IMG/VR virus record: IMGVR_UViG_3300020156_000088
Span: 1-20,138 of that record
Strand: one strand, 5' to 3'
Length of the DNA stretch: 20,138 bases
From: a virus
Shown piece by piece: positions 617 to 17,896 of this stretch. The notes below the pieces were generated by a model. The model was not told the origin of the DNA and did not search any database. It worked only from the letters and a program-made list of their open reading frames with translations. The position numbers were made by a program, and so were the translations under genes. Position 1 is the stretch's first letter, and each line of letters opens with the position of its first letter.

Positions 617-631
617 TCAACATTTAGTTGA
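617..631 (+). promoter_or_regulatory. TCAM-N7-KTGA dyad, site A
   Basis: TCAACATTTAGTTGA is a dyad with perfect 5-bp arms (TCAAC/GTTGA). It lies in the gap between the first two early genes and is followed by the 19-bp leader repeat at 636-654. The right arm extends to TTGACA, which resembles a sigma-70 -35 box, but no -10 box is evident at the proper distance. It is one of eight exact matches noticed in intergenic DNA. Confidence 0.55.
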
Positions 632-635
632 CAGT

Positions 636-654
636 CCTAAGTGAAACGTGGGAC
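636..654 (+). repeat. 19-bp leader repeat, copy 2
   Basis: CCTAAGTGAAACGTGGGAC differs from the copy at 300-318 by one base. It sits 5 nt after dyad site A and 29 nt before the ATG at 684. A shorter match (GTCCTAAGT, 2319-2327) follows the dyad near 2289. Confidence 0.55.
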
Positions 655-683
655 GCTGCGACACCTACAGAGGAGACTCGATC

Positions 684-1265
684 ATGACCGAAGAAGCATG
701 GATCATCGTCTACAAGGCCGATGGTGACGACCTCAACTTGACCACGCGCCACGTCGGCCCCTTTGCCTCGCACGATGAGGCTTACGACGCCCTGTGCGAG
801 CTTCCTGCACCGATCAACGGCGGCCACAAGTTCATTCAGGAACTGGAGCAACCGACCGGCGTGTCGCGCCGTATTGATGACCAGTGCAGCACCCACAAAC
901 GCAACCCGGAACCCGGCCACCGCTGCGATACATGCCACCGCATCCGTATCGAAATGACGATTGTTCGTAAGACGGCAGGGGCGCTGATAGATGCCGGTTA
1001 TTTCGTCAGCGTGAACGATGGTGATGAAACCACCGTAATGGATAGCCGCATGGTTTCTGAAATCATGGCGGCCGTCTTCACCACGGATGAGGATTATTTC
1101 TACGCCCGGCGCGAGGCGACCGGAAAAGATCGGGACTACGATTCGTTCGTGCGGTTCATCTACGGGAACGACGGTCCCGACGTGATCAATGATTACAGCA
1201 CGTCGCTTGAGTCCGTGATGCGCCCCGTTCTCGACTACTGCGACACGCTCGACGTATACGCCTGA
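684..1265 (+). CDS. Conserved phage protein, apparently two joined modules
   Basis: This encodes 193 residues. The ATG at 684 is chosen over an upstream in-frame GTG at 648 because AGAGGAGA (669-676) sits at proper spacing before it. Residues 1-90 form an N-terminal module with a possible zinc-binding knuckle (C68, H71, C81, C84). Residues 91-193 begin with Met and carry an acidic, aromatic module (VNDGDETTV; FTTDEDYFYA; VRFIYGNDGPDVINDY). From memory, this second module occurs as a separate small protein in other proteobacterial phages, so the gene may be a fusion. No enzymatic motif is visible. It is driven by its own leader (dyad A plus the 19-bp repeat). Confidence 0.75.
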   Translation: MTEEAWIIVYKADGDDLNLTTRHVGPFASHDEAYDALCELPAPINGGHKFIQELEQPTGVSRRIDDQCSTHKRNPEPGHRCDTCHRIRIEMTIVRKTAGALIDAGYFVSVNDGDETTVMDSRMVSEIMAAVFTTDEDYFYARREATGKDRDYDSFVRFIYGNDGPDVINDYSTSLESVMRPVLDYCDTLDVYA

Positions 1266-1294
1266 CGTCCATCCCACAGAGGAGAGCACCACCG

Positions 1295-1552
1295 ATGACA
1301 CGCGAAGAACAATGGGCCGACATACAAGCCGCCGGCCGTGCCGAAGGTCGCAGCGCCCTGGAAGTCGCGCGCCTCGTCCACACCTACCGCGTCACATGGG
1401 AAATCGACGTTGAGGCGTCATCGCCCCAGGAAGCCGCCCGGCAGGCCCGACACCACCAAACCAAGCCCGACACTACGGCAACCGTGTTTGACGTCCACCG
1501 CGAAGGCGTGGAGCCCGTGCGGGTGGACCTGACCGAATTGGAGGAGCGCTGA
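1295..1552 (+). CDS. Small conserved phage protein
   Basis: This encodes 85 residues, with an ATG preceded by AGAGGAGA (1278-1285). The central part (TYRVTWEIDVEASSPQEAAR) resembles a short beta-alpha domain common in phage early regions, in which a strand is followed by a helix with an S/D-P-E-E-A-A-R signature. A later strand (TATVFDVHREG) completes the pattern. The molecular role is unknown. It lies 29 nt after the previous gene and is probably co-transcribed with it. The first 25 residues are helical and may be a separate extension. Confidence 0.7.
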   Translation: MTREEQWADIQAAGRAEGRSALEVARLVHTYRVTWEIDVEASSPQEAARQARHHQTKPDTTATVFDVHREGVEPVRVDLTELEER

Positions 1553-1584
1553 CCATGCCCCGCCCCATAACAGAGGAGTCCACC

Positions 1585-1740
1585 ATGACCGCGAAGCGTA
1601 GCTTTATCATCCGCGATAGGTTCGGCCGTCGCGTAGCAACTATTCGCGCGACTTCACACGCCAGCGCCTTGACGGCCTTTCTTCAGAAAGCAGGCGAGTT
1701 GCAATCGGAGCGCGGCTTGTATGCGGAGGCCGTCGATTAA
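1585..1740 (+). CDS. Very small early protein of unknown function
   Basis: This encodes 51 residues. An in-frame ATG at 1555 is rejected in favour of 1585, which has AGAGGAG at 1572-1578 and would otherwise leave that site inside the gene. The product is basic at the N-terminus (MTAKRSFIIRDRFGRRVATIR) with a likely helix after it. The stop overlaps the next ATG by one base (TAATG), so the two genes are probably translationally coupled. ATGCCCCGCCCCAT occurs both at 1555 and at the start of the next gene (1740), hinting at a local duplication. Confidence 0.55.
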   Translation: MTAKRSFIIRDRFGRRVATIRATSHASALTAFLQKAGELQSERGLYAEAVD

Positions 1741-1949
1741 TGCCCCGCCCCATGAACCCCGCCCGCCGGGCCGCTCTCGACACGGGCCGCAGGTTCTACG
1801 CTGGCCCGCCATGCCGCAGCGGCCACAAGGGCGAGCGTTACACGTCAACGAACGCCTGCCGCGAATGCGTGCGGCTACAGGACCGCCCCGACAAGCGGCG
1901 CGCCACCACCACGGCCACGGATGATCCGTTGGCCGAGCTGATAGGATGA
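1740..1949 (+). CDS. Small zinc-knuckle-like protein with DPLxxLLG tail
   Basis: This encodes 69 residues; an ATG at 1752 is an alternative start. The core reads R-F-Y-A-G-P-P-C-R-S-G-H, then R-Y-T-S, then C-R-E-C. This is the Cys-x3-His/Cys-x2-Cys arrangement seen in small zinc-binding modules, often at the N-terminus of phage HNH-type proteins. No HNH catalytic residues follow, so a stand-alone nucleic-acid-binding module is the cautious reading. The C-terminus (DDPLAELIG) resembles the ends of proteins at 9899, 13106 and 13771. Confidence 0.65.
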   Translation: MPRPMNPARRAALDTGRRFYAGPPCRSGHKGERYTSTNACRECVRLQDRPDKRRATTTATDDPLAELIG

Positions 1950-1961
1950 GGAGTTGAAGAG

Positions 1962-2249
1962 ATGAGTAAGGTTTACAGTGTCGATGTCATGATTTGCGCG
2001 ACGGCTTATATTCGCGCTGACTCGGAAGATGACGCCGTCAAGCTCGCTGGTGAAGCATTTGCGTTTCCGAATGACGCATCGGTTTCGAACCGCACATCGT
2101 TTGGTGAGGTTGCTACGTCCGGCGCTGACTATTCTCAGTTGGAAGGCGTGACCCTTTCCCCCGCCATGACCTTCTATGGCTTTGGCGGTGGTGAAGCACT
2201 TCCCTTTGATGCGTCGGCTTTCGAGTGCGTCTACGACTTAGACGATTAA
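1962..2249 (+). CDS. Small conserved phage protein, unknown function
   Basis: This encodes 95 acidic residues. The ATG is preceded by GAGGAG (1948-1953), which overlaps the stop of the gene before. It starts with a beta strand (KVYSVDVMICATAYIRADSEDDAVKLA), a strand-helix module of the kind often annotated as a conserved phage hypothetical. The remainder is Gly- and Asp-rich. Codons are visibly richer in A/T than in neighbouring genes, which suggests a separate origin. A gap of about 110 nt follows and contains a dyad, so this may be the last gene of its transcription unit. Confidence 0.65.
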   Translation: MSKVYSVDVMICATAYIRADSEDDAVKLAGEAFAFPNDASVSNRTSFGEVATSGADYSQLEGVTLSPAMTFYGFGGGEALPFDASAFECVYDLDD

Positions 2250-2288
2250 CCATCCCGCCCGGAAGCCCGCACACCCGTTGACCCAGTT

Positions 2289-2303
2289 TCACTATTTGGT
2301 TGC
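2289..2303 (+). promoter_or_regulatory. TCAM-N7-KTGA dyad, site B (one mismatch)
   Basis: TCACTATTTGGTTGC matches the dyad family except for the last base. It lies between genes, is preceded by GTTGACC and is followed by GTCCTAAGT (2319-2327), the core of the early leader repeat. The next gene starts 59 nt downstream. Confidence 0.45.
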
Positions 2304-2362
2304 AACGGCACGGGCCGCGTCCTAAGTTATTCAGACCGGACAGAGCAGAGGAGTCACCCGCG

Positions 2363-2659
2363 ATGTTTGAACTTCCGCCTAGGTTACAGCGCGCATGGCT
2401 GGCTCATCGCGGCGAGGCTATGGACGCGCTCGGCATGTTCCAAGGCTATGCGCCCAACCGGCCGCGCGTCCCCGGCATGGATACGGCCGTAAGGCTGGCG
2501 GTGCGGATTGAAAGCGGGCGCACCGTCGAGCAAGCGGCGGCCCGTGAATATGTCTACCGCTGGAGTCTCGCGCTCGACGCGCTGGAATGCAGCGCACGCG
2601 GCAACGGCCGCGCTAACCCCTTCGCCGCGCATTACGCGCCGCACCTTTTGGGAATGTGA
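2363..2659 (+). CDS. Small basic early protein, unknown function
   Basis: This encodes 98 residues. The ATG at 2363 is preferred because AGAGGAG (2347-2353) precedes it; an upstream in-frame start at 2300 would overlap the regulatory dyad and lacks such a site. The product is rich in Arg and Ala and predicted helical. The middle stretch (AVRLAVRIESGRTVEQAAAREYVYRWSLAL, residues about 42-70) could be a helix-turn-helix, but this is only an impression. The next gene follows after 9 nt. Confidence 0.6.
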   Translation: MFELPPRLQRAWLAHRGEAMDALGMFQGYAPNRPRVPGMDTAVRLAVRIESGRTVEQAAAREYVYRWSLALDALECSARGNGRANPFAAHYAPHLLGM

Positions 2660-2668
2660 GGTAATCCA

Positions 2669-3109
2669 ATGACCCAGTTTCGCAACTTCGACGCACCCGC
2701 CCGGCCGCAGCGCGTGACGATCACTTGGCGCATGGAAACGCCGCAGGATGACAGCGGCGACACGCCAGAGGAACGCGACGACGCGTTTTGGCCAGCCCGT
2801 GACGATTACGAGTCGGAAGCGCTGTTTCAGGTCTACCAGGAACAGGCCGAACTCAGGATGGCGGCTTGGAGGCGCGATGAATGGTCCTACGTCGGAGTCG
2901 TCGCCGTGGCCCATGTCGCGGTTCCGATCGGCGGCGCCTCGTTCGTCATGCACGAATTCCGCAGCGCGGGCCTATGGGGCATCGAGTCGGACTCTGGCGA
3001 CTACCTACGCGAGGTGTTCGAAGAGGAACGCCGCGAACTGAAACGCCAGCTTCAGGAACTCGGCGCGGCCCTACAGTCGGGCGAATACGATGAGGAAGAC
3101 GCGGAATAG
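2669..3109 (+). CDS. Conserved phage hypothetical protein
   Basis: This encodes 146 residues, with GAGGTAA just before the ATG. Residues 1-65 are Asp/Glu-rich and variable. Residues about 70-125 (WSYVGVVAVAHVAVPIGG; SAGLWGIESDSGDYLREVFEEE) match a motif I recall from many proteobacterial phages, where a strand pair is followed by G-L-W-G-I-E-S-D-S and a charged helix. No function is known for this family. The C-terminal end is a highly charged, probably coiled-coil helix followed by an acidic tail. It is probably co-transcribed with the gene before it. Confidence 0.75.
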   Translation: MTQFRNFDAPARPQRVTITWRMETPQDDSGDTPEERDDAFWPARDDYESEALFQVYQEQAELRMAAWRRDEWSYVGVVAVAHVAVPIGGASFVMHEFRSAGLWGIESDSGDYLREVFEEERRELKRQLQELGAALQSGEYDEEDAE

Positions 3110-3120
3110 CTGCGTCTGCG

Positions 3121-3140
3121 GTTTCAACTAATCAGGGAGT
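3121..3140 (+). repeat. Twin leader sequence, copy 1
   Basis: GTTTCAACTAATCAGGGAGT contains the ribosome binding site of the gene at 3150. An almost identical sequence is at 3551-3570 before the gene at 3579. Its TTTCAAC start resembles one arm of the TCAM-N7-KTGA dyads. Confidence 0.5.
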
Positions 3141-3149
3141 AATCACGTT

Positions 3150-3539
3150 ATGGCTGACATTTACGAACAACACCAAGCCGCGTTCGCCCAAGTCTCGGCG
3201 TTCGTTATCTTGGACGCCAGCGGCGAGCGCGTCGCAACGGTGGCGCTGAAGTTTCCCCGCGACGGCGCGGGCCGACTCTATGCCTATGTTCACATCATCG
3301 GCGTGGAAATGGTGCGAGGCCATGCTAACGGCTATGGCTACGACAAGCGTTCGGCGGCGGTCGCGGCGGCTATCGCAAAGGTTCCGGCATACGACGACGC
3401 GCGCGACCAGGACTCCACCTACGGCCGCCGCGTCATCGCAACACGCGCCGCGTTCCAGAAAGCCGCGCCCGCCATGGACTCGGACGACTGGACTCGCGTG
3501 CTGGAGCGCGCCGGGTTCCGCGTCCTACAGGCGGTCTAA
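3150..3539 (+). CDS. Conserved phage hypothetical protein
   Basis: This encodes 129 residues. The ATG follows the AGGGAG site in the twin leader. The protein starts with a strand-rich part (AFVILDASGERVATVALKFP), continues with YVHIIGVEMVRGHANGYGYDKRSAAVAAAIAKV, and ends in a helical segment. The Y-G-Y-D-K-R-S-A-A-V signature is one I associate with phage proteins of unknown role. No catalytic motif, membrane segment or signal peptide is seen. The strong individual leader suggests high or separately tuned translation. Confidence 0.7.
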   Translation: MADIYEQHQAAFAQVSAFVILDASGERVATVALKFPRDGAGRLYAYVHIIGVEMVRGHANGYGYDKRSAAVAAAIAKVPAYDDARDQDSTYGRRVIATRAAFQKAAPAMDSDDWTRVLERAGFRVLQAV

Positions 3540-3550
3540 CCGCGCCCAAC

Positions 3551-3570
3551 GTTTCAACAAATCAGGGAGT
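3551..3570 (+). repeat. Twin leader sequence, copy 2
   Basis: GTTTCAACAAATCAGGGAGT differs from copy 1 (3121-3140) by one base, and the similarity continues for about five more bases. It supplies the ribosome binding site for the gene at 3579. Confidence 0.5.
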
Positions 3571-3578
3571 ATTCAACA

Positions 3579-4358
3579 ATGCTTACGCCAGCCAAGGCTT
3601 ATGAGATTGCCTCGCAATGGGGTTCGCTCATGACGAACGGCGATCCGGGAGCCGTGTTCTACACGTTCCCGATTAACGACGGCCGCCCGCAATCTGAGGC
3701 GCACCGTCAACAGTTGCTCGATTATACATTTGACCTCATCAAAGAGGAGCGCGACGACACACCCGACGACGAACTAGACCCGGAAACGGCCGAACGTGTC
3801 GCGGAGCTGCGCGCCCTCTGGGATTTCTTCAGCACGTCGCCCCTAGGCGACGGAGTCGAGCGACCCGAGCACCCGAACCAGTTTCATCTGGCGACGGACG
3901 GCGCTAACGGCGCATGGGCGGCCTTGGACGCCTTCACCCAAGGCTATATCGAGGCGCTGTTTTTCACTGAGTGCGAGACAATGGCCGCCGAAGCTGCCGA
4001 GCGTCACGGCTCGGAGCGCCACGCGCGGGAACTCGGCTTCGCGGACCTCGCCCCCGAAGCGCTGGCGCGGATCATCGAGGATTGCGAGCGGTTCCAACAT
4101 GCGCAACTCAAAATCCAGCAGGGCCGCCAGATATTCGGAAGACGTCAAATTACAACAGCCGTGCTGTCTGTTCTGCGCGGCCCTGATTTATGCATCAAGG
4201 GTGGCCGTGACTTCTGGTATACCCGCAACGGCCACGGGTGCGGGTTCTGGGATGGCGATTGGCCCGAACCCTACGCCAGCGAGTTGACGGCAGCCGCGAA
4301 GGCGTTCGGCGAGGTAGACGCCTACCTAGGCTACGACGGCAAGGTCTATCTGTCATGA
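3579..4358 (+). CDS. Conserved phage protein, two-module hypothetical
   Basis: This encodes 259 residues and is the longest early gene. Residues 1-50 (AYEIASQWGSLMTNGDPGAVFY) look like a module found as a small protein in other phages. From about residue 110, QGYIEALFFTECE, then DLAPEALARIIEDCERFQ, then GRDFWYTRNGHGCGFWDGDW and AKAFGEVDAYLGYDGKVYLS follow the order of a widespread phage hypothetical family. The function of both parts is unknown. The stop overlaps the next ATG (ATGA), so the next gene is probably translationally coupled. The stretch at about residues 178-205 looks less conserved in style, but the frame is intact on both sides. Confidence 0.75.
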   Translation: MLTPAKAYEIASQWGSLMTNGDPGAVFYTFPINDGRPQSEAHRQQLLDYTFDLIKEERDDTPDDELDPETAERVAELRALWDFFSTSPLGDGVERPEHPNQFHLATDGANGAWAALDAFTQGYIEALFFTECETMAAEAAERHGSERHARELGFADLAPEALARIIEDCERFQHAQLKIQQGRQIFGRRQITTAVLSVLRGPDLCIKGGRDFWYTRNGHGCGFWDGDWPEPYASELTAAAKAFGEVDAYLGYDGKVYLS

Positions 4359-4773: not shown

Positions 4774-4775
4774 CA

Positions 4776-5016: not shown

Positions 5017-5141
5017 GGAGCCGCCGCACGGCCGCTACGGGCGAGCTGGAGCCGCCGCACGGCCGCTACGGGCGAGCTGGAGCCGCCGCACGGCCGGTCC
5101 GCTACCTCGCGCCACCTGAACCGCCGCACGGCCGCCACGGG
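5017..5141. repeat. 31-bp tandem repeat
   Basis: Units start at 5017, 5048 and 5079 with a 31-bp period. The first two are essentially identical (GGAGCCGCCGCACGGCCGCT, then ACGGGCGAGCT) and the third stops after about 19 bases. A diverged fourth copy (CCGCCGCACGGCCGCCACGG) is at 5121-5140. A 31-bp period breaks any reading frame, so this is not a coding repeat. It lies between the early terminator and a minus-strand terminator. Confidence 0.8.
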
Positions 5142-5147
5142 CCACGC

Positions 5148-5183: not shown

Positions 5184-5307
5184 AGCAGGGGTTCAGGGAT
5201 GGTTCGCGGGGTTAGCGTTTCATGGTCGACTCTCCCTAGCGGTGCGGCGTCAAAGACGGCGCTTCTGGTCATGCCTGAGCATTGCGCCCACGGTTCGCGG
5301 CGACCGT
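5148..5307 (-). ncRNA. Candidate small transcript 1 (minus strand)
   Basis: The dyad at 5307-5321 reads TCACTTTACGGTTGA on the minus strand, closely like the dyad before the nucleotide operon. A perfect terminator lies about 125-160 nt downstream. Between them the minus strand has an AGGGAGAG site (5237-5230) exactly 6 nt before ATG-AAA-CGC-TAA, a three-codon frame. A 34-codon frame also starts at 5272 (5168-5272, product ending PEPLLGPPG) but has only a weak ribosome binding site. The transcript could be a regulatory RNA, a leader-peptide RNA or a small messenger. The start point is inferred. Confidence 0.35.
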
Positions 5308-5321
5308 CAACCGTAAAGTGA
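5307..5321 (-). promoter_or_regulatory. TCAM-N7-KTGA dyad, site C
   Basis: TCACTTTACGGTTGA on the minus strand differs in 3 of 15 positions from site F at 5818-5832 (TCACCATTCGGTTGA). Downstream on the minus strand is the candidate small transcript ending at the terminator 5183-5148. Confidence 0.5.
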
Positions 5322-5445
5322 ATTCCCACTAAACCGATAGGGATTGACGGATATTGCGGCCCTGAACGCGGCCCCGCCTGACTCGACCACGGGTGCGGTC
5401 AAAGCCAGCGACTGCACCGACGACCAGGTGTGCCGGCGACCCCCG

Positions 5446-5580
5446 TCCTCGATTACGCTCCCAGGCAGGGCCTCCTCGATTACGCTCGGAGTCACCCCGT
5501 CCTCGATTACGCCTGGAATTCGGGCCTCCTCGATTACGCTCGGAGTCACCCCGTCCTCGATTTATTTTTCAGCGACCCCC
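5446..5580. repeat. 27-bp minisatellite, five units
   Basis: TCCTCGATTACG recurs at 5446, 5473, 5500 and 5527 with an exact 27-bp period. A degenerate fifth unit at 5554 runs into a T-rich stretch. Units 2 and 4 are identical, giving a 54-bp higher-order repeat (5468-5506 equals 5522-5560). Because 27 is divisible by three, several frames stay open. The plus frame reads SSITLGVTP-like nonapeptides; the minus frame (5307-5549) reads SVIEDGVTP/SVIEEA-like repeats with GAGGAC before a GTG in each even unit. None has convincing flanking coding sequence, so a protein-binding array is as likely as a coding repeat. Confidence 0.75.
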
Positions 5581-5742: not shown

Positions 5743-5757
5743 TCACCCTGCGCGTGA
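5743..5757 (-). promoter_or_regulatory. TCAM-N7-KTGA dyad, site D
   Basis: TCACGCGCAGGGTGA on the minus strand shares its AGGGTGA arm with the lysis-operon site (TCACTATTAGGGTGA). It lies upstream of the minus-strand TTGACA at 5727-5722. Confidence 0.5.
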
Positions 5758-5775: not shown

Positions 5776-5790
5776 TCAATTTCTTGTTGA
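5776..5790 (+). promoter_or_regulatory. TCAM-N7-KTGA dyad, site E
   Basis: TCAATTTCTTGTTGA has perfect TCAA/TTGA arms. Its centre lies 33 bp from site D and 42 bp from site F, forming a cluster of three between the nucleotide operon (+) and candidate small RNA 2 (-). Orientation is ambiguous because the arms are symmetric. Confidence 0.5.
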
Positions 5791-5817
5791 CCAGCCCGCA
5801 GCTCTGGGTCTACCGTT

Positions 5818-5832
5818 TCACCATTCGGTTGA
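5818..5832 (+). promoter_or_regulatory. TCAM-N7-KTGA dyad, site F, before nucleotide operon
   Basis: TCACCATTCGGTTGA ends 27 nt before the start codon at 5860, the first gene of the long nucleotide operon. The same 25-27 nt spacing occurs at 10474-10488 and 12474-12488. Confidence 0.6.
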
Positions 5833-5859: not shown

Positions 5860-6462
5860 ATGAACGAGCAGATCAACGCCACCATGCGGGCGATCCACGC
5901 CGAGAACGTGGCGCGGGGCTGGTGGAGCGATCCGAAGACAGGTGAGTCTATCCTCGCCACCCGCGATCGCGGCGGCCTGCTGGCGCTCGTCCACAGCGAA
6001 CTCAGCGAGGCCCTGGATGGCTTCGAGAACGAACAGATGGATGACCATCTGACCCATCGGCGGATGGCCGAGGTCGAGCTGGCGGACGCCAAAATCCGGA
6101 TCTTCGACATCGCTGGCGCAGAGTGTCTCGACCTCGGTGGCGCGATGCAGGAGGTCGCCGACGCGGACTACGATCGCCTGTCCCTGGACGGCACCTACAC
6201 GATCGAGGAAGTCCTGCTGCGCGCCCACCGGAACCTCAGTCGCGCGCTGGAGGGCTTCCGCAAAAATATGATGCACGCGGACATGCCGCACCGCAAGGCC
6301 ACCGAGGTCGAGCTGGCGACGGCGATGGTCCGCATCAACAACCTGGCGAGCGGCTGCGGGTTCGACCTCGCCGCCGCGATCGAGGAGAAGCGCGCCTACA
6401 ACGGCAAGCGCGCCGATCACCAGATCGCCAACCGCCTGACCGCGAACGGCAAGAAGTTCTAG
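5860..6462 (+). CDS. Tandem MazG-like protein, one half degenerate
   Basis: This encodes 200 residues, predicted all-alpha, resembling phage MazG-like NTP pyrophosphohydrolases, which cleave (d)NTPs to monophosphates. Two repeats are visible. Repeat A (about 39-100) has HSELSEALDGF with E47xxE50 and EVELADAKIRI with E73xxD76, the metal-binding pattern of the family. Repeat B (about 118-178) keeps the frame (HRNLSRALEGF, EVELATAMVRI) but has N125/R128 and T154 at the equivalent positions, so it is probably inactive. The C-terminus (DHQIANRLTANGKKF) matches the end of single-domain relatives as I recall them. The start has AGAGAAG upstream and follows dyad F. It opens the nucleotide operon. Confidence 0.75.
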   Translation: MNEQINATMRAIHAENVARGWWSDPKTGESILATRDRGGLLALVHSELSEALDGFENEQMDDHLTHRRMAEVELADAKIRIFDIAGAECLDLGGAMQEVADADYDRLSLDGTYTIEEVLLRAHRNLSRALEGFRKNMMHADMPHRKATEVELATAMVRINNLASGCGFDLAAAIEEKRAYNGKRADHQIANRLTANGKKF

Positions 6463-10473: not shown

Positions 10474-10488
10474 TCACTAATTTAGTGA
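10474..10488 (+). promoter_or_regulatory. TCAM-N7-KTGA dyad, site G, before nrdJ
   Basis: TCACTAATTTAGTGA is a perfect 15-bp palindrome, the best member of the family. It starts 2 nt after the dNMP kinase stop and ends 27 nt before the GTG of the ribonucleotide reductase gene. Confidence 0.65.
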
Positions 10489-10515: not shown

Positions 10516-12471
10516 GTGTCTGCTGTCCAACTCCCGACCGATTATCAATCTTTCATCCATCGTTCGCGCTACGCCCGGTTCGTCGACAGCAAGGGCCGCC
10601 GGGAGCACTGGAACGAGACGGTCGGCCGCTACTTCGACTTCTTCGAGCAGGAGCTGGACGAGCACCACGGCTACAAGGTCTCGCAGACGCTGCGCAGCGA
10701 GCTGGAGGACGCGGTCCTGGGCCTGCACGTCATGCCGTCCATGCGGGCGCTGATGACCGCCGGCCCGGCCCTGAAGCGGGAGAACCTGGCCGGCTACAAC
10801 TGCGCCTACCTGCCCATCGACCGGCCTCGGGCGTTCGCGGAAGCCCTCTACATCCTGATGTGCGGCACGGGGGTCGGCTTCTCGGTCGAGCGCCAGGTGA
10901 TCAAGCAGCTTCCCGAGATCCCGGCGACGTTCGACACCACGGACGAGACGATCATGGTTGACGACTCCAAGCGGGGTTGGGCTGACGCCTTCGAGACGCT
11001 GATCGTCTATCTCTACGCTGGCTCGATTCCCCGTGTTGACTACAGCCCCATCCGCAAGGCCGGCGAGCGCCTGAAGATCTTCGGCGGCCGAGCGTCCGGC
11101 CCTGAGCCGCTGCGCGCGCTGTTCGAGTTCACCATCCGCACCTTCCGCAACGCCGCGGGCCGGCGGCTGAACAGCCTCGAATGCCACGAGATCGTCACCA
11201 AGACCGGGGAAATCGTGGTCGTCGGCGGCGTGCGGCGCTCGGCCGAGATCAGCCTGTCCAACCTCTCCGACCAGCGGATGCGCGACGCCAAGTCCGGCCA
11301 GTGGTGGATCGACAAGCCCCACCTGGCGCTGGCCAACAACTCGGTCGCCTACACCGAAAAGCCCGAGGTCGGCGCCTTCATGGACGAGTGGTCGTCGCTC
11401 TACCGCAGCCGCTCGGGCGAGCGCGGCATCTTCAACCGTCACGGCGCGATCCAGAAGATGTTGCGCCTCGGCCGGCGCGACCACCGCTTCGAGTTCGGCG
11501 TCAACCCCTGCGCCGAGATCATCCTGCGTCAACGCGGCCTGTGCAACCTCACCGAAGCCGTCGCGCGGCCGGGCGACGCCATGGCCGAACTGAAGGAGAA
11601 GGTGGCGCTGGCCGCCGTGCTGGGAACCTGGCAGTCCACCCTCACCCGCTTCAACTTCGTCGAGCCCGACTGGCGGCGCAACGCCGAGGAGGAACGGCTG
11701 CTGGGCGTCTCGCTGACCGGCATCTACGACAACCCCCTGACGCGCGGCGACCACGGGCTGGCGACGCTGGCCACCAAGCTGCAGGCCCTGAAGTCCACCG
11801 TCATCAAGGCCAATCGGGTCGGCGCCCACGAGATCGGCATCAACCCCTCGGTAGCCACCACCACCGTCAAGCCCAGCGGCACCGTCTCGCAGCTCGTCGA
11901 CTGTCGCAGCGGCATCCACCAGGGCCACGCCGAGTATTACATCCGCCGCGTCCGCGCGGACAACAAGGACCCGGTCACCCAGTTCATGATCAACGAGGGC
12001 ATCCCGCACGAGCCCGACGTGACCAAGCCCAACGACATGACCGTGTTCAGCTTCCCGATGAGCGCGCCCGGCACGGTCACCCGCGACCAGGTCACGGCCA
12101 TCCATCACCTGGAGCTGGTCAAGTGCTACAACACCCACTGGTCCGAGCACGCCGTCTCCTGCACCATCAGCGTCAAGGAGCACGAGTGGCCGGCGGTCGG
12201 CGGCTGGGTCTACGACAACTTCGACGACCTCGCGGGCCTGTCGTTCCTGCCGCACTTCGAGGGCGATTCCAGCTACGCCCAGATGCCCTACGAGACGATC
12301 ACCAAGGCCGACTACGAGGCCAGGGTCGCCGCCATGCCGAAGAACATCGACTGGTCCGGCCTGCGCTTCTACGAGGCCGGCGAGGACACGGTGACCGCCA
12401 CCCGCGAGTTCGCCTGCGTCGGCAATACCTGCGAGATCGTCGACGCCCAGACGCCGCTTGCGTCTGCGTAG
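10516..12471 (+). CDS. nrdJ: Class II (adenosylcobalamin) ribonucleotide reductase
   Basis: This encodes 651 residues with a GTG start and GAGGGG about 6 nt upstream. It reduces ribonucleotides to deoxyribonucleotides using adenosylcobalamin as the radical source. Key residues fit the monomeric Lactobacillus leichmannii enzyme: C96 (AGYNCAYLP), C332 and E334 (VNPCAEI), C343 (RGLCNLTE) and the C-terminal redox pair C634/C639 (CVGNTC). The spacing C332 to C343 equals C408 to C419 in that enzyme. The N-terminal SFIHRSRYARF and ATTTVKPSGTVSQL also fit. It is shorter than the about 739-residue reference. A B12-dependent enzyme needs no oxygen or second subunit but does need host cobalamin. Confidence 0.93.
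   Translation: MSAVQLPTDYQSFIHRSRYARFVDSKGRREHWNETVGRYFDFFEQELDEHHGYKVSQTLRSELEDAVLGLHVMPSMRALMTAGPALKRENLAGYNCAYLPIDRPRAFAEALYILMCGTGVGFSVERQVIKQLPEIPATFDTTDETIMVDDSKRGWADAFETLIVYLYAGSIPRVDYSPIRKAGERLKIFGGRASGPEPLRALFEFTIRTFRNAAGRRLNSLECHEIVTKTGEIVVVGGVRRSAEISLSNLSDQRMRDAKSGQWWIDKPHLALANNSVAYTEKPEVGAFMDEWSSLYRSRSGERGIFNRHGAIQKMLRLGRRDHRFEFGVNPCAEIILRQRGLCNLTEAVARPGDAMAELKEKVALAAVLGTWQSTLTRFNFVEPDWRRNAEEERLLGVSLTGIYDNPLTRGDHGLATLATKLQALKSTVIKANRVGAHEIGINPSVATTTVKPSGTVSQLVDCRSGIHQGHAEYYIRRVRADNKDPVTQFMINEGIPHEPDVTKPNDMTVFSFPMSAPGTVTRDQVTAIHHLELVKCYNTHWSEHAVSCTISVKEHEWPAVGGWVYDNFDDLAGLSFLPHFEGDSSYAQMPYETITKADYEARVAAMPKNIDWSGLRFYEAGEDTVTATREFACVGNTCEIVDAQTPLASA
12448..12466 (+). other. Hairpin at the end of nrdJ
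   Basis: CAGACGC and GCGTCTG form a perfect 7-bp stem with a 5-nt loop, ending 3 nt before the nrdJ stop codon. No T tract follows, so it is not a standard terminator. It may stabilise the 3' end or cause partial termination before the gapR promoter region. Confidence 0.45.
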
Positions 12472-12473
12472 AT

Positions 12474-12488
12474 TCAACAATATAGTGA
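12474..12488 (+). promoter_or_regulatory. TCAM-N7-KTGA dyad, site H, before gapR
   Basis: TCAACAATATAGTGA lies 2 nt after the nrdJ stop and ends 25 nt before the ATG of the GapR homologue. Position relative to both genes mirrors site G before nrdJ. Confidence 0.6.
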
Positions 12489-12513: not shown

Positions 12514-12786
12514 ATGAGCGGGATCGGGCACAACTCCGGTGAGGACACGCTGAACGGCACGGCGCAGACGCAGCTCCGCACCATCATCGAACGGATCGAG
12601 CGTCTTGAGGAAGACAAGGCAGCCGTCACCGAGGACATCAAGGAGGTCTACGCCGAGGCGAAGGGCAACGGCTTCGACGCCAAGATCCTGCGCAAGGTTA
12701 TCCGCCTGCGCAAGCAGGACAAGGCCAAGCGCGACGAGGAAGAGGCGCTGATCGACCTCTACCTCTCGGCCATCGGCGGGCTCTGA
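12514..12786 (+). CDS. gapR: GapR-like nucleoid-associated protein (DUF2312)
   Basis: This encodes 90 residues with GAGGA 8 nt before the ATG. The core (about 20-90) has [32 protein letters not shown], then [13 protein letters not shown] and a Glu-rich helix ending in LYLSAIG. This is the DUF2312/GapR pattern of alphaproteobacteria. Caulobacter GapR is a helical clamp that prefers overtwisted, AT-rich DNA ahead of replication and transcription complexes. A phage copy may organise replicating phage DNA or compete with host GapR. The N-terminal IGHNSG motif recurs in similar form near the C-terminus of the methyltransferase downstream. It has its own dyad promoter-like site. Confidence 0.88.
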
Positions 12787-13106
12787 TGGCCGATCCCAAC
12801 GAGCGCCTGCCCGCGCTGATCCGTGAGGTCACCGAAGCGGGCCTGCGGATCAACAACCTGTTCCACCGGGCGGATGGGCGCTGCCAGGCCAACCTGCGCT
12901 CGAAGGTGACTCCGGCCTTCTTCGAGTGGGGTTACGGCCGCACCTTCGTTGAAGCCCTGGAGACCGCCCTGGAGAAGGCCAGGGGCGGCAAGCTCGCCAC
13001 CAAGGCGACCACCGACGACCAGGGCCGCGCCGCGGTGCAGATCGGCATCGTCAAGGAGCCTGTCGCCCCCGTGGTCGCGGACCCGCTCGACGACCTGCTG
13101 GGATGA
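12786..13106 (+). CDS. Unknown protein ending in DPLDDLLG
   Basis: This encodes 106 residues; its ATG overlaps the gapR stop by one base (TGATG). Residues 15-65 (EAGLRINNLFHRADGRCQANLRSK; FFEWGYGRTFVEALETALEKARGG) look like a small domain I recall from phage proteins, in which an aromatic W-G-Y-G turn precedes a helix. A linker and the C-terminal PVVADPLDDLLG follow. The coding bases of the tail match those at 9879-9897 exactly for 19 nt. Its position between GapR and a DNA methyltransferase suggests a DNA-related role. No function is recognised. Confidence 0.65.
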   Translation: MADPNERLPALIREVTEAGLRINNLFHRADGRCQANLRSKVTPAFFEWGYGRTFVEALETALEKARGGKLATKATTDDQGRAAVQIGIVKEPVAPVVADPLDDLLG

Positions 13107-13771
13107 TCCTCGACGGACCTTTCGCCGGCCTGCAGCGCAACGGCTACGGCTTGATCGAGGCCGACCCGGCGTGGGGCTGGATAAGCTACGGCGGCAAGGC
13201 CAGCGCGCCGCACAGGACCGAGTCCGAGCCCTACGAGGTCATGACGATGGAGGCGCTGCGCGCCCTCCCTGTGGCGGATATCGCGGCCAAGGACTGCCTG
13301 CTCAATATGTGGGTGATCGGCAGCCATCTCGACCAGGCCATCGAACTCGGCCGCGCCTGGGGCTTCACCTTCAAGAGCGATGGATTCGTCTGGGTGAAGA
13401 CCGGCAAACACGATCCCGCCGTGCGCCCCATCAGCATGGGCAAATGGGTTCGCAAGCAGGTCGAGTATTCCCTGCTGTTCAGCCGCGGGAAGCCAAGTCG
13501 ACTCGATGCCGGGGTGCGCCAGCTCCTGGAGACCGGCGACAACGTCATCTATGCGCCGAAGCGGGAGCACAGCCGCAAGCCGGACGAGCGCTACGAGCGC
13601 ATTGAGCGTCTGGTGGCCGGCCCGTACGTCGAGCTGTTCGCACGCCAGCAGCGTCCGGGCTGGAGCGCCTGGGGGAACGAGGTTGGCAAGTTCGACCAGG
13701 ACGCGTTCGAAGCGCTGCTCGGCCACAACCGCGGTCCTGCGCTAGATCCCCTGGAAGCCGTCCTCGGCTGA
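13103..13771 (+). CDS. MT-A70-family DNA adenine methyltransferase
   Basis: This encodes 222 residues, ATGA-coupled to the gene before. IEADPAWGW (18-26) holds the catalytic motif as DPAW rather than the usual DPPW. LLNMWVIGSHLDQAIELGRAWGF (66-88) and FVWVKT (95-100) fit the Rossmann core, and REHSRKPDERYERIERLV with YVELFARQ and GWSAWGNE (154-192) is the conserved C-terminal half. Family members transfer methyl from S-adenosylmethionine to N6 of adenine. In the phage it probably modifies DNA to evade host restriction or alter host methylation control. The tail LLGHNRGPALDPLEAVLG resembles motifs in neighbouring proteins. It is the last gene before a 127-nt gap. Confidence 0.85.
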   Translation: MILDGPFAGLQRNGYGLIEADPAWGWISYGGKASAPHRTESEPYEVMTMEALRALPVADIAAKDCLLNMWVIGSHLDQAIELGRAWGFTFKSDGFVWVKTGKHDPAVRPISMGKWVRKQVEYSLLFSRGKPSRLDAGVRQLLETGDNVIYAPKREHSRKPDERYERIERLVAGPYVELFARQQRPGWSAWGNEVGKFDQDAFEALLGHNRGPALDPLEAVLG

Positions 13772-14177: not shown

Positions 14178-14219
14178 CGGTGTTGACGAAGACTTCTTAA
14201 GGTCTGCCGTCGAATAGTT

Positions 14220-14243
14220 CCCCGAAGAGTAGCACCTTCGGGG
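14220..14243 (+). promoter_or_regulatory. Hairpin covering a ribosome binding site
   Basis: CCCCGAAG (14220-14227) pairs perfectly with CTTCGGGG (14236-14243) across an 8-nt loop. The 3' arm contains most of the GGGGAG ribosome binding site (14240-14245) for the TTG start at 14251. Folding would hide the site, so this may be a translational switch. No T tract follows. Confidence 0.5.
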
Positions 14244-14250
14244 AGACCTG

Positions 14251-14547
14251 TTGAACGCTTTGCTGCCTGATCAAACCAACGTCGTCGCCCTGACACGGAC
14301 CTGCTGTGTACGGCGGCTGTCCGAGTCCGAGGTCGACTACTGGTCGCCGGCTCGAACCGGCAACTGGATCATGGACCAGGCGACCGGCGGCATCTACGCC
14401 TCGCGCACGATCACCTATCTGAGGGACGAGAAGAACCCCGTCCTGTTCGTCTCGATGATGCGCGCGATGGTTGGGAAGGGGTGCTTCGAGGCCGTGGAGG
14501 CGGGGTTCGTCAAGGCGCTCGCCGAGCAGTTGACGGCTAGACCGTGA
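14251..14547 (+). CDS. Unknown protein, paralogue of previous gene
   Basis: This encodes 98 residues from a TTG start 5 nt after GGGGAG. VVALTRTCCVRRL, EVDYWSPARTGNWI, TITYLRDEKNPVLFVSMMRAMVGKGCFEAVEAGF parallels the previous gene, clearly a diverged tandem duplicate. No family is recognised. The ribosome binding site sits in a hairpin (14220-14243), and the rare TTG start also suggests weak or controlled translation. The 3' end overlaps the convergent minus-strand phosphoesterase gene by 11 nt. Confidence 0.65.
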   Translation: MNALLPDQTNVVALTRTCCVRRLSESEVDYWSPARTGNWIMDQATGGIYASRTITYLRDEKNPVLFVSMMRAMVGKGCFEAVEAGFVKALAEQLTARP

Positions 14548-15844
14548 AGGCCGCCTTGGCGCTCAGCGACGGCGCGCTGACGCCCTTCGCCTTCTGCAGG
14601 CGGTCGCGGATCTCCTGGATCGGCAGCACCCGCCGGCCGATCTCACCGTAGGTGCGGCTGCGCAGGATGACGGTGATCGACTTGCGGTTCCGATAGCCGC
14701 CGTCGTGCGCCCACTTGTCGAGCGCCGCCAGGTGGTTGAACGACTCGATGAAGATGCTCGGATGCTCCTTCATCACCATGCCGTGGTGGACGTGGCCGAT
14801 GTCGACGTAGTGGAACTCCGTCTCGCCGAAGTCCTTGCGGAAGTCGGTGGTCATCACGCCCGCCAGGCGCACCGGCTTGCAGGTGTCGCTGTGATGGGTC
14901 ATGACCAGGGTGTTGCCCATCCGGTAGGCGATGAACACGCTGTCGTTGTTGAGGATGTGGACGCGTCCCGTGGCTCCGTAGGCGACGCGCAGCAGCTCGG
15001 CCATCCAGATGTCGTTCGTACGGCTGTGGTTGCCCTGGTTGACGATGACGTCGACGTGGCAAGCCTTGGTCAGCGCCTTGTCGACGATCCAGCGCATGAC
15101 CCGGCTGTAGACCTTGATCATCTTGGGGAAGCGGCCGTCGTAGTCGAGCTTGTGGCCGCTCGCCTCGGTCTCGCCCTTCATGTTCTCGTAGTGGGTGAAG
15201 TCGCCGAGGTCGTTGATGACGATCCGTTCGCACGCCGGCAGCTCGTCGATCAGGACGCCGATGGCCGTGCAGAGTTCGGACTCGGCGATCTTCAGGTCGA
15301 AGTTCTCCCCCACCTCCGCGGCGTGGGCCAGCATCCCGAGGTGGGCGTCGCCGATGTTGATCCACGGGATGATGTCGGTGTTGAAGTCGAGCGGCGCGGC
15401 CGGCGCGCCAAGCGCCGGGACCTCCTCGTAGAAGGCGTCGATGGCCTCCTTGATCTGTTCCAGGTACGCCTGGTCGTCGAGCCGCGTCTTCGTCCACTGC
15501 AGGATCGGCTGGCGCTCGCCGCCGGGATGGACCCGCTCCAGGGTCGAGTGGCCCTTGGCGACGAAGGGACGGGGGACGATCGAGTTCAGCCCGTGCTCGG
15601 GATCGTAGCCCTGCGCGGCGGCTGCGGCGCGCAGCCGGGCGATGGCTCGCAGGATGGCGGTGTGGTGGATGCCTGCGGCTCGCGCCGCGGCCCTGGCGCC
15701 GCCCGTCTCGTTCAGCAGATCGACGTAGCGGGCCTGGGTCGGGGTCGCCCAGTCCTTCAGCTTCGGGTCGATATGAAAGGCGCTACTCAGGCGCTGAGTC
15801 CTTGGACGTCCGCCGCAGCCACTTGCCGACTGTGCGGGTTTCAA
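14537..15844 (-). CDS. HTH-metallophosphoesterase
   Basis: This encodes up to 435 residues. The N-terminal part (about 33-75: TPTQARYVDLLNETGGARAAARAAGIHHTAILRAIARLR) is a helix-turn-helix-like DNA-binding region. The calcineurin-like phosphoesterase core keeps its metal ligands: D166xH168 (GDAH), D215 (GDF), N272/H273 (GNH), H317/H318 (THHSD) and H351/H353 (GHVH). Such enzymes hydrolyse phosphodiesters, often nucleic acids, with two metal ions. No ATG, GTG or TTG gives a shorter protein, so the start is either TTG at 15844, 62 nt inside the preceding gene, or a CTG at 15790 with AAGGA 8 nt upstream. It is last in the lysis operon. Confidence 0.8.
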   Translation of the reverse strand: MKPAQSASGCGGRPRTQRLSSAFHIDPKLKDWATPTQARYVDLLNETGGARAAARAAGIHHTAILRAIARLRAAAAAQGYDPEHGLNSIVPRPFVAKGHSTLERVHPGGERQPILQWTKTRLDDQAYLEQIKEAIDAFYEEVPALGAPAAPLDFNTDIIPWINIGDAHLGMLAHAAEVGENFDLKIAESELCTAIGVLIDELPACERIVINDLGDFTHYENMKGETEASGHKLDYDGRFPKMIKVYSRVMRWIVDKALTKACHVDVIVNQGNHSRTNDIWMAELLRVAYGATGRVHILNNDSVFIAYRMGNTLVMTHHSDTCKPVRLAGVMTTDFRKDFGETEFHYVDIGHVHHGMVMKEHPSIFIESFNHLAALDKWAHDGGYRNRKSITVILRSRTYGEIGRRVLPIQEIRDRLQKAKGVSAPSLSAKAAFTV

Positions 15845-15998
15845 GAATCCGGATGACCGTCCAGATGATGGTGAACAGGGCCGCGACCGCCGGCAGGACG
15901 TCGGCGAGCGTGCCGATCACCACGCTGAGCGACAGCGCATCGACAGCGTGCTTGCCGACTTCCGCGGCGTTGAACTGGGTACTCACTCGCTTCGACAT
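15783..15998 (-). CDS. Candidate holin (membrane protein)
   Basis: This encodes 71 residues. A polar N-terminus (MSKRVSTQFNAAEVGKHAVD) is followed by a long hydrophobic region (ALSLSVVIGTLADVLPAVAALFTIIWTVIRIL, about 21-52) that can form two short or one long membrane segment, then a basic C-terminus. This layout and the LPxxAALxxIIWTxIRIxET pattern resemble small phage proteins annotated as holins. It overlaps the o-spanin gene by 16 nt. A holin forms membrane lesions that release or activate the endolysin. Another membrane protein (17327-17620) is an alternative holin; both may act together. Confidence 0.55.
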   Translation of the reverse strand: MSKRVSTQFNAAEVGKHAVDALSLSVVIGTLADVLPAVAALFTIIWTVIRILETRTVGKWLRRTSKDSAPE

Positions 15999-16279
15999 CC
16001 TGCTATGACGGGTTCTACTTGGCGAAGTCGCGCTGTCCGCAGGTCTCGGCCGGCCAGCACGAGTTGAAGGAATCGCTCGGGGTCCGCGGACCGCAGGGCT
16101 TGATCAGTGTCTGGGTAGCTGGGCGCGACACCGAGCGATCTTGGAACGCAGGACACGGCCACCGGGACGGCCACTTCCTTCGTGATGACGATGGGCTCGA
16201 CGCGGCCCTTGGTCGTGTTGCAGGCGCTGAGCATGAGACTCGCGACGGTGGCCGCGGTGATGCGGTGGAACCGGCTCAC
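15983..16279 (-). CDS. Rz1-like outer-membrane spanin lipoprotein
   Basis: This encodes 98 residues from a GTG overlapping the i-spanin stop (GTGA). The signal peptide ends in a lipobox (LMLSAC, Cys20), so the mature protein would be lipid-anchored in the outer membrane. The rest (CVPRSLGVAPSYPDTDQALRSA; LAGRDLRTARLRQVEPVIAGCR) fits the C-terminal pattern of Rz1-like proteins with two cysteines, although it is less proline-rich than lambda Rz1. O-spanins pair with the i-spanin to fuse or disrupt the outer membrane in the final lysis step. A longer reading of this frame upstream lies inside the i-spanin gene and is rejected. Confidence 0.75.
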   Translation of the reverse strand: MSRFHRITAATVASLMLSACNTTKGRVEPIVITKEVAVPVAVSCVPRSLGVAPSYPDTDQALRSADPERFLQLVLAGRDLRTARLRQVEPVIAGCRSE

Positions 16280-16704
16280 TTCAGCGCCTCCAGGTACTTG
16301 CGGCGAACGTCCTCGACGCGGGCGCAGGCGTCGGCCCCGGCCGGCCTGTAGTCGAGCGTGGCGTCGGCGCGAACTTCTAGCCGGGCGGCGGTGGCGCGGG
16401 CCTCGGCCAGGTCTTCCTCGGCCGCCGCCAGCCGGCGGTTGCTGTCGGCTTCCAACGCCTTCACCTTGGTCGACTGGCTGTCGAGCGACGCCTTCAGGCT
16501 CTCGACGTTGGTGTGGCACTGGCTGAGCTGGGCGATGTAGCCCGTCTGCGGGTTGTAGATGGCGTCCGACAGGGCGGCGTTCGCGGCCGTCAGCCGTCCC
16601 GTCTCGGCCTTCTCGACCAGCAGCAGGACGCCGAGCAGCAGGGCCACGGCCGCCGCGCCGAACGTGCCGAGCTTCCACGCCTGGGCCTGCACCCAGCCGA
16701 TCAT
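16276..16704 (-). CDS. Rz-like inner-membrane spanin
   Basis: This encodes 142 residues. The ATG overlaps the endolysin stop by 4 nt. One N-terminal membrane segment (LGTFGAAAVALLLGVLLLVE, about 12-31) is followed by a long periplasmic region rich in Ala, Glu and Arg (about 32-125) with heptad-like helices, typical of an i-spanin coiled coil. C63 may form a disulfide. It works with the adjacent Rz1-like lipoprotein to breach the outer membrane. The order endolysin, Rz, Rz1 with overlapping genes is the classical phage arrangement. Confidence 0.75.
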   Translation of the reverse strand: MIGWVQAQAWKLGTFGAAAVALLLGVLLLVEKAETGRLTAANAALSDAIYNPQTGYIAQLSQCHTNVESLKASLDSQSTKVKALEADSNRRLAAAEEDLAEARATAARLEVRADATLDYRPAGADACARVEDVRRKYLEALK

Positions 16705-17330
16705 GCCCAGCCTCCCGCCTGCAGGGCGTCCTGGAAGGCCATGGCGTGGCCGGCGATCTGATCGGCGCAGTCGAGGCCGTTGATGATCTTGCGGCTGACC
16801 ACGAACTGGCTGCGGATGGCCGGTCCGGTCTTCGGCAGGTAGTGGGACAGCTTGCGGCCGGTGAACCAGCCCTCGCTCATGCCGCGGATCATCACCGCGG
16901 CGGCGATGTCCGGACGCATGGCCAGGTCGGGGTTCCTGATCAGCGCGCCCTTCAGGGCAAGCTCCTGGTCGGCGCGCTCGTAGTTGCAGCGCCAGGTGAG
17001 CTGCACGTAGCCGCGGCCGGCGTATTTCACGCCGTCGCCAGGCGTCAGGTTGCCGTGCTTGCGCGCCAGAGTGGGCCGTGCGCCTTCGACGTCGTACATG
17101 CGCCGAAGGTAGGCCGCACCGCCGCGTTCCTTGATCGGCTGCATCGTGCCGGCCGTCTCGTGGTAGGCGGTGGCGATGGCGTAGGCCACGTAGGCAAGCG
17201 GCCACTGGGCGTCCTGGGCCGCCAGCAGGATGGCGTTGCAGCCGCCGACCTCGTCCTGCGACAGGGTCGGCCCGAGCAGGCCGAGGCGCACGGAGTCGAA
17301 GAAGGCCGCGGGGGTGGGCATGAAGGTCAC
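16701..17330 (-). CDS. Endolysin, glycoside hydrolase 19-like
   Basis: This encodes 209 residues. The GTG start overlaps the previous stop (GTGA) and has GAGG upstream; an ATG at 17321 is an alternative. AYHETAGTMQPIKERGG (55-71) has the likely catalytic E58 with E68, and VKYAGRGYVQLTW (101-113) is the hallmark G-R-G-Y/F-x-Q-L-T of chitinase-like phage endolysins. The enzyme would cut peptidoglycan glycan strands. No signal peptide or SAR anchor is present, so it should accumulate in the cytoplasm and need a holin for release. It is surrounded by holin candidates and spanins. Confidence 0.88.
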   Translation of the reverse strand: MTFMPTPAAFFDSVRLGLLGPTLSQDEVGGCNAILLAAQDAQWPLAYVAYAIATAYHETAGTMQPIKERGGAAYLRRMYDVEGARPTLARKHGNLTPGDGVKYAGRGYVQLTWRCNYERADQELALKGALIRNPDLAMRPDIAAAVMIRGMSEGWFTGRKLSHYLPKTGPAIRSQFVVSRKIINGLDCADQIAGHAMAFQDALQAGGWA

Positions 17331-17620
17331 GGCTTGGAGTCCTCGGGGTCGACCTCGAAGCCCAGGCCGCCCGGTCCGCTGCCCTTCACCTTCACGGCGG
17401 CGAGCGTGATCACGATCACCCCGATCAGGAACATGCAGGCGAGCAGCGTGTAGCCGAGGTAGTCGAGTTGCTTTTCAGCCAGCCGGTCAGGCCATCCGCC
17501 CTTCCAGACGATGTAGCTCAGCGCGGTTCCGGCCACCGTCAGGACCGGAGCGGCTCCGAACAGCGCCCACAGCCGCAGCGGGGCGGCCTTGAGCATCGCT
17601 GTCCAGAGCCGGGAGATCAC
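17327..17620 (-). CDS. Two-pass membrane protein, candidate holin
   Basis: This encodes 97 residues from a GTG start; an ATG at 17596 is possible. Two membrane segments (about 16-39, RLWALFGAAPVLTVAGTALSYIVW, and about 52-78, LDYLGYTLLACMFLIGVIVITLAAVKV) flank a charged loop. The C-terminus is Gly/Asp-rich. Its place immediately before the endolysin, with GTGA overlap, makes a holin role likely. No family is recognised with certainty. If the protein at 15783 is the holin, this one could be an antiholin or a second holin. Confidence 0.55.
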   Translation of the reverse strand: MISRLWTAMLKAAPLRLWALFGAAPVLTVAGTALSYIVWKGGWPDRLAEKQLDYLGYTLLACMFLIGVIVITLAAVKVKGSGPGGLGFEVDPEDSKP

Positions 17621-17625
17621 GGACG

Positions 17626-17850
17626 TCAGGCCGTTTCGAGCGCGACGAGGCGGGCTTCCATGGCCGCCAGCTTGGCGGACAGGGCGCCCTCCACCGGGTC
17701 GCCGCCGGCCGCGTCGAGCACCTCGACATCGCCGAGCGCGCCCAGCGTGGAGTCGAGCGATTGCAGCGCGCCTTTGAACGACTGCTTGAACTCGAAATCG
17801 CCGAGGGTGCCGAGGGGAAGTTCCAGGTTGGTGGTCTTGGGAGCAGCCAT
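17626..17850 (-). CDS. First gene of the lysis operon, unknown function
   Basis: This encodes 74 residues. The ATG at 17850 is preferred because GAGAGGT lies about 6 nt upstream; a TTG at 17865 lies before that site. The sequence has a hydrophobic-acidic N-terminal part (NLELPLGTLGDFEFKQSFKGALQSLDSTLGALGDVEVLD) and a C-terminal helix (LSAKLAAMEARLVALETA) with heptad spacing, possibly a short coiled coil. No membrane segment is seen. No family is recognised. It is directly downstream of dyad I and ends 5 nt before the next start. Confidence 0.6.
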   Translation of the reverse strand: MAAPKTTNLELPLGTLGDFEFKQSFKGALQSLDSTLGALGDVEVLDAAGGDPVEGALSAKLAAMEARLVALETA

Positions 17851-17861
17851 TTGAATACCTC

Positions 17862-17876
17862 TCAACTGTTCATTGT
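17862..17876 (-). promoter_or_regulatory. Near-match dyad beside site I
   Basis: On the minus strand ACAATGAACAGTTGA matches TCAM-N7-KTGA except for the first base. It lies between site I and the ribosome binding site of the gene at 17850, with a centre-to-centre spacing of 20 bp from site I. It may be a second binding site or chance. Confidence 0.3.
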
Positions 17877-17881
17877 TGCTA

Positions 17882-17896
17882 TCACCCTAATAGTGA
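17882..17896 (-). promoter_or_regulatory. TCAM-N7-KTGA dyad, site I, before lysis operon
   Basis: On the minus strand TCACTATTAGGGTGA is preceded by TT and ends 31 nt before the ATG at 17850. It is the only member of the family seen in front of late genes, and it is oriented with them. The first lysis gene follows directly. Confidence 0.6.

Follow-up and report, generated by a model that had tools for sequence, protein, structure and literature searches.

What reads the short inverted repeat that recurs between the genes of the virus record IMGVR_UViG_3300020156_000088? The window analysed here is the whole of this record (20,138 bases, one strand), which looks like a phage fragment, as it lacks the genes for replication, head, and terminase that its relatives have. 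A reading made from the sequence alone had described a 15-bp dyad, TCAM-N7-KTGA, in front of most of its operons and had suggested either a dimeric regulator or a promoter element. The comparisons with related phages described below make it very likely that these dyads serve as operators for an immunity repressor of the XRE/CI-like kind, a dimer encoded by the phage and acting on many promoters.

The enrichment of the dyad is real. Nine exact matches were found in the window, whereas 100 dinucleotide shuffles gave a mean of 0.81 and a maximum of 3. Eight of the nine are intergenic, with non-coding DNA making up 18% of the window under gene calls from our own simple caller, which affect the coding/intergenic split at the margin. 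The eight exact sites listed in the sequence-only reading are all correctly placed and do lie between genes, but a ninth match, inside a methyltransferase gene at 13302, had been missed; it is probably due to chance. The spacing is strict: the intergenic count is 8 for N7 and 0–1 for each of N0–N6 and N8–N14. To score the sites, we used a symmetrised matrix trained only on the intergenic dyads of 19 relatives (Casjensviridae and unclassified relatives, comprising phage genomes and large contigs, with the window excluded from training). Ranks 1 to 7 across the whole window fell to 617, 12474, 5818, 10474, 17882, 5307, and 5776, in that order, with scores of 16–26. The best score in shuffled sequence averaged 7.8 with a maximum of 17.3, and the seventh-ranked dyad, 5776 (16.4), falls just within this extreme. 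The matches at 5743, 13302, and 17862 score at background level. Besides the exact dyads there are 25 with one mismatch (about 16 expected), and the two that had been selected from them both exist; the site at 2289 (13.1, rank 9) is a probable member, but that at 17862 (3.8) is not supported.

The same pattern is found in the relatives. The 19 phages hold 244 intergenic N7 dyads, compared with 6–26 at any other spacing, and 6–27 intergenic dyads per genome. Comparison with coding DNA, which had been proposed as a check, showed the dyads to be about 10 times rarer there, the intergenic density being 10.5 times the coding density (unique sites, related contigs of at least 50% GC). Dyads also recur at equivalent gene starts, as the second proposed check asked: the gapR dyad is kept at the equivalent place in L096–L101, and a dyad stands at the equivalent place before the MazG-like gene in L096–L101, L104, and L149. 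In G001, 12 of the 16 exact dyads lie within its 6.6% of non-coding DNA, and the intergenic ones sit 12–77 nt upstream of gene starts on both strands. In the same phage (L176/L177), a third TCAA(C) half-site is often present about 3 nt past the dyad, and TTGA-N3-TCAA occurs five times, always between genes. These relatives were reached from the MazG-like gene at 5860, through phages with the dyad before equivalent genes and then through the terminase of those phages, which led to Casjensviridae; a terminase scan of genome contigs yielded two loci only. Relatives of nrdJ and of the metallophosphoesterase were dropped as guides; most lacked motif enrichment, indicating that those genes are also carried by other phages and are poor guides.

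The position of the dyads relative to promoters was examined by scanning the surroundings of oriented dyads for TTGnnn-N16-18-TAnnnT-like elements, using shuffled flanks as the control and a score threshold of our own. In a first set of 171 sites, on which the registers were first noticed, the dyad fills the spacer at 22 sites (about 1 expected), the −35 element there beginning between −8 and −6, and the −16/−17 register, in which the −10 element lies inside the right half of the dyad, occurs 16 times against 3.8. A recount in the 19 phages, a set that overlaps the first in part, gave 15 against 1.6 for dyads between −35 and −10 (spacer class), 20 against 5.6 for overlap with the −10, and 14 against 3.5 for dyads downstream of the −10, each above all 100 shuffles. 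The register that uses the TTGA of the dyad itself as the −35 is mildly enriched (34 against 19). With at least three registers relative to −35/−10, the dyad is no fixed part of the promoter. The dyad-to-start distance of 25–31 nt reported for four genes is accurate (27, 27, 25, and 31 nt). In the spacer and −10-overlap classes, the −10 element is mostly 22–36 nt from the start codon, and where a promoter is recognisable the near-constant dyad-to-start distance therefore largely follows from the position of the −10.

These data bear on the possibility that a phage sigma factor, an activator, or a phage RNA polymerase reads the dyad as a promoter element specific to the phage. Compatible with it are the distance to some start codons, which varies little, the AT-rich centre, and the intergenic location, and the dyads do overlap promoters; the several registers count against it. 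Moreover, asymmetric dyads do not face their genes as had been claimed: in the window, 5818 faces the opposite way to 5307 and 12474, and among the relatives the asymmetric dyads (positions 4/12) divide 36 to 29. In some cases 12–14 nt separate the dyad from the start codon, and the Shine-Dalgarno sequence follows the dyad immediately, which makes an upstream activator role hard to accommodate, as a promoter downstream of the activator site would have no room. We regard a promoter element as very improbable. A second possibility is that the same repressor binds the dyads as stoperators, the elongation roadblocks proposed for mycobacteriophage L5. Many dyads are scattered genome-wide, and some lie past the −10 or have no recognisable promoter nearby, as stoperators would; however, the overlap with the −35/−10 region is significant, and the dyads are symmetric and unoriented, whereas in L5 the stoperators lack symmetry, have a fixed orientation, and mostly lie off promoters (PMC6550527). 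We consider a stoperator role unlikely.

The candidate reader is a protein of about 230 residues. Its match to PF01381 (E = 7e-4, 20.1 bits) lies under the 23-bit cut-off, and it matches PHROG 2967 "transcriptional regulator" with E = 1e-14 to 2e-33. Homologues are present in RHph_X2_30, RcMrWorf, RcCWillis, AchV4, Klebsiella phage N133, and DSS3-P1; in RHph_X2_30 the regulator (52754–53488) adjoins an integrase (51238–52443). AchV4_0078 has been described as cI-like (PMC7996906) and an RcD-cluster protein as an immunity repressor (PMC8601537), both matched here by description, not by locus tag, and a lysogeny module has been described for AchV4 (PMC7996906) and the RcD cluster (PMC8601537). 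In L307 (G037), one in-frame TAA breaks the repressor homologue. A profile search recognised the candidate in 22 of 38 records. Co-occurrence with the dyads was compared in the 29 records longer than 50 kb, a set from which the bacterial genome G022 was excluded, as were shorter records: the 22 with the repressor carry 1.5–4.6 dyads per 10 kb and the 7 without it carry 0.4–1.4 (Mann-Whitney p = 6e-7), the latter density being about chance level. No intergenic dyad was present in the 50 kb of pCB2051-A, which belongs to the family but lacks the repressor. A dimeric regulator, one of the two earlier suggestions, is supported by this co-occurrence with an XRE-type repressor together with the symmetry of the dyad, its strict N7 spacing, and its lack of orientation preference.

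Furthermore, the 260 bp that precede the repressor gene hold an exact dyad in 11 of 17 genomes; the other 6 have only a one-mismatch dyad there, often expected by chance. In G008, an HTH_3-like protein lies at the contig end with a dyad upstream of its gene. The half-site also varies: it is TCAAC in AchV4, N133, RHph_X2_30, G016, G029, G031, and G035, TCACG in G018 and G024, TCACA/G in the Rhodobacter phages, and TCACC in G026. Distance between helix-turn-helix (HTH) domains correlates with distance between operators (Mantel r = 0.25, p = 0.008; partial correlation r = 0.23, p = 0.011), a modest correlation whose p-values are weakened by shared ancestry, whereas distance between C-terminal domains does not correlate significantly (r = 0.11, p = 0.14). 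We infer that the candidate repressor binds the dyads. Both the covariation and the presence of dyads upstream of the repressor gene favour the XRE-type protein over another phage DNA-binding protein (AlpA/Cox-like, or a small protein near the primase) as the main reader, alone or in competition with the repressor. An AlpA-like protein of G001 has a spacer-class dyad upstream, and Cox-like roles have been proposed in AchV4 (PMC7996906), but we consider such a reader decidedly unlikely.

The half-sites vary among related phages in step with the phage repressor, which also argues against a regulator of the host as the reader. The Ros box is a similar N7 inverted repeat, and CtrA, MucR/Ros, or another host protein would couple the phage to host physiology. 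PF05443 (ROS_MUCR) was absent from 8 motif-bearing phage records, which disposes of a phage-encoded MucR/Ros in these. CtrA sites have been reported in use by alphaproteobacterial phages (PMC9437464); the exact dyads read TCAM-N7-KTGA and not TTAA-N7-TTAA, the consensus given there, and the dyad is indeed distinct from the CtrA and LexA sites quoted in the sequence-only reading. The dyad-bearing phages include those of Achromobacter and Klebsiella, and their hosts cover alpha-, beta-, and gammaproteobacteria, a span that counts against a host regulator, as does the background level of the motif in records without the repressor. We hold this explanation to be extremely improbable.

An AlphaFold2 model of the repressor (mean pLDDT 87, pTM 0.56, the relative placement of the halves being uncertain) has an N-terminal helical domain (residues 14–88 helical) and a C-terminal alpha/beta domain. 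Archaeal Hjc resolvases head its PDB matches (E = 6e-5, TM 0.53 on the target, about 120 columns). As the search returned no query coordinates, this match was assigned to the C-terminal half from its length and secondary structure, and the C-terminal half of the repressor (L184:287–964, minus strand) is predicted to resemble a Holliday-junction resolvase. Lower-ranked matches are EspR and the N-terminal domains of TP901-1 CI, the latter being found among the weak matches in both sequence and fold. Domain-profile searches of the candidate repressor found no S24 peptidase domain. The C-terminal domain might be a disarmed resolvase-like fold that senses DNA ends, branched DNA, or another nucleic-acid signal and triggers induction, although we give this conjecture from the model very little credence. 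If true, prophage induction would depend on the protein sensing DNA structure directly and not on self-cleavage driven by RecA, and 10–30 operators would be freed together.

In the mechanism that we propose, repressor dimers would occupy dyads on or beside sigma70-type promoters throughout the genome, in the −35/−10 spacer, over the −10, just past it, and possibly over the −35, and bound repressor would exclude RNA polymerase. The early, nucleotide-metabolism, lysis, and structural operons would thereby be silenced in a lysogen, and the repressor would control its own gene through the upstream dyad. One repressor protein could thus keep much of the viral genome silent. Repression upon binding and lysogeny itself are likewise inferred, and the phage of the window presumably encodes the candidate repressor outside the fragment.

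Several points weigh against this explanation. The repressor gene was not recognised in the 20-kb window fragment, nor in the dyad-bearing fragments G001, G002, G003, G015, and G019. A recognisable sigma70 promoter stands at an expected register for only 2–3 window dyads. An exact dyad is present in 3 of the 10 window upstream gaps of at least 50 nt under our gene calls and in 4 of 33 to 22 of 38 such gaps per genome in the relatives, under half in most genomes, and the earlier phrase "in front of most operons" overstates this. Of the seven repressor-free records, two alone, G030 and pCB2051-A, are related through the terminase; the remaining five have other genes in common and are weaker controls. 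Kinship among the sequences inflates both the co-occurrence and the Mantel statistics. Finally, AchV4 behaved as a lytic phage, and no stable lysogens were obtained (PMC7996906).

Table 1. Dyads, promoters, and genes of the window (scores from the relatives-trained matrix).
Feature	Position	Strand	Remarks
Dyad TCAACATTTAGTTGA	617..631		Exact; score 25.8, highest in the window; 52 nt upstream of gene 684; right end runs into TTGACA
Dyad TCACTATTTGGTTGC, probable member	2289..2303		One mismatch; intergenic; score 13.1
Dyad TCAACCGTAAAGTGA	5307..5321		Exact; score 18.1; no called gene directly downstream
Dyad TCACCCTGCGCGTGA, weak member	5743..5757		Exact; score 8.9, near shuffle maxima; 102 nt upstream of gene 5860
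Dyad TCAATTTCTTGTTGA	5776..5790		Exact; score 16.4; over −35 (TTGACC, 5787–5792) of gene-5860 promoter
Sigma70-like promoter of gene 5860, TTGACC-N18-TACCGT	5787..5816	+	Between dyads 5776 and 5818; found as offset −31 match of dyad 5818
Dyad TCACCATTCGGTTGA	5818..5832		Exact; score 20.7; directly past −10, 27 nt from ATG 5860
MazG-like pyrophosphatase gene	5860..6462	+	PHROG 5658, E = 2e-64; downstream of operator cluster
Perfect dyad TCACTAATTTAGTGA	10474..10488		Exact; score 19.4; 27 nt from nrdJ start 10516
nrdJ, adenosylcobalamin-dependent ribonucleotide reductase	10516..12471	+	PHROG 367, E = 1e-170; TIGR02505, E = 7e-83, under that model's curated cut-off
gapR promoter TTGCGT-N17-TATAGT	12458..12486	+	−10 covered by dyad 12474
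Dyad TCAACAATATAGTGA	12474..12488		Exact; score 25.7; 25 nt from gapR
gapR, nucleoid-associated protein	12514..12786	+	NCBIfam NF052541 equivalog, E = 7e-44, over cut-off
Match in methyltransferase gene 13103–13771	13302..13316		Exact; score 8.2; not counted as member
Dyad before minus-strand lysis operon	17882..17896		Exact; score 18.6; 31 nt from start codon 17850

Other repeats and a probable RNA gene were noted in the window. The element TCCTAAGYGAAACGTGGGAC occurs twice, at 299–327 and 635–663, the second copy directly past dyad 617. A 45-nt leader is duplicated (3101–3145 and 3531–3575, 76% alike), each copy standing before a gene and holding one dyad half-site and a Shine-Dalgarno sequence (TTTCAAC-WAATCAGGGAG). 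Tandem arrays occupy 5017–5096 and 5441–5562 in the gene-poor stretch before gene 5860 (a 31-bp unit repeated 2.6 times, and a 27/54-bp unit). The minus strand of 5589–5676 matches the Rfam suhB/mmgR small RNA (sRNA) family RF00519 (44.9 bits, cut-off 41); it has a strong predicted fold (z −6.0), an intrinsic terminator at its end, and a sigma70-like promoter, TTGACA-N18-CATGAT, just upstream. It is a probable phage-encoded MmgR-like sRNA and was not seen in eight related loci. The MazG-like protein aligns with its G001 homologue as two separate segments, which suggests an internal domain duplication.

In the open-access literature, with subscription papers outside the search, we found no description of these operators and no paper that joins Casjensviridae, a repressor, and an operator. 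The papers found on Casjensviridae and relatives name a repressor at most and never an operator, and term searches in the main text of a survey of alphaproteobacterial phages made with MEME turned up no motif of this kind. The proposed explanation would provide a concrete immunity system for the widespread Casjensviridae and relatives, whose hosts are as diverse as Klebsiella, Rhodobacter, and Sinorhizobium. The promoters that fall silent in a lysogen can be predicted from it, and the half-site (TCAAC, TCACG, TCACA, or TCACC) would predict superinfection immunity groups. The repressors and operators would also form a series in which the evolution of immunity specificity could be followed, as already done with cluster A mycobacteriophages.

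Among known systems, the candidate, as a putative XRE/HTH repressor, resembles lambda CI and TP901-1 CI. Lambda CI acts at few operator clusters (OL/OR), whereas the operators proposed here are spread genome-wide and the candidate has no detected S24/LexA peptidase domain; the half-site spacing of the lambda operators also differs from that of the dyad. The repressor of Streptomyces phage phiC31, from another host phylum, binds many conserved intergenic inverted repeats. The cluster A mycobacteriophages (L5, Bxb1) likewise have 20–30 genome-wide sites, a single immunity repressor, and a motif and repressor that diverge together (PMC6550527). Their sites are 13–14 bp, asymmetric, oriented, mostly off promoters, and bound by a monomer (PMC6550527), in contrast to the 15-bp dyads described here, which show no orientation and are enriched over promoter cores. 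In SPbeta, MrpR binds SPBRE, a 15-bp element repeated in promoter regions across many genes of the prophage, and SPBRE had been predicted in silico long before MrpR was identified (PMC10516654). MrpR is a repressor with an enzyme-like fold minus the enzyme role (PMC10516654), as may also be true of the candidate; MrpR differs in having a tyrosine-recombinase fold instead of the putative XRE domain, the phages studied here infect proteobacteria, and the operators are likened by description. On the best reading of these comparisons, the dyads would act as operators spread genome-wide in the manner of SPbeta MrpR and SPBRE, and partly in that of the L5 stoperators.

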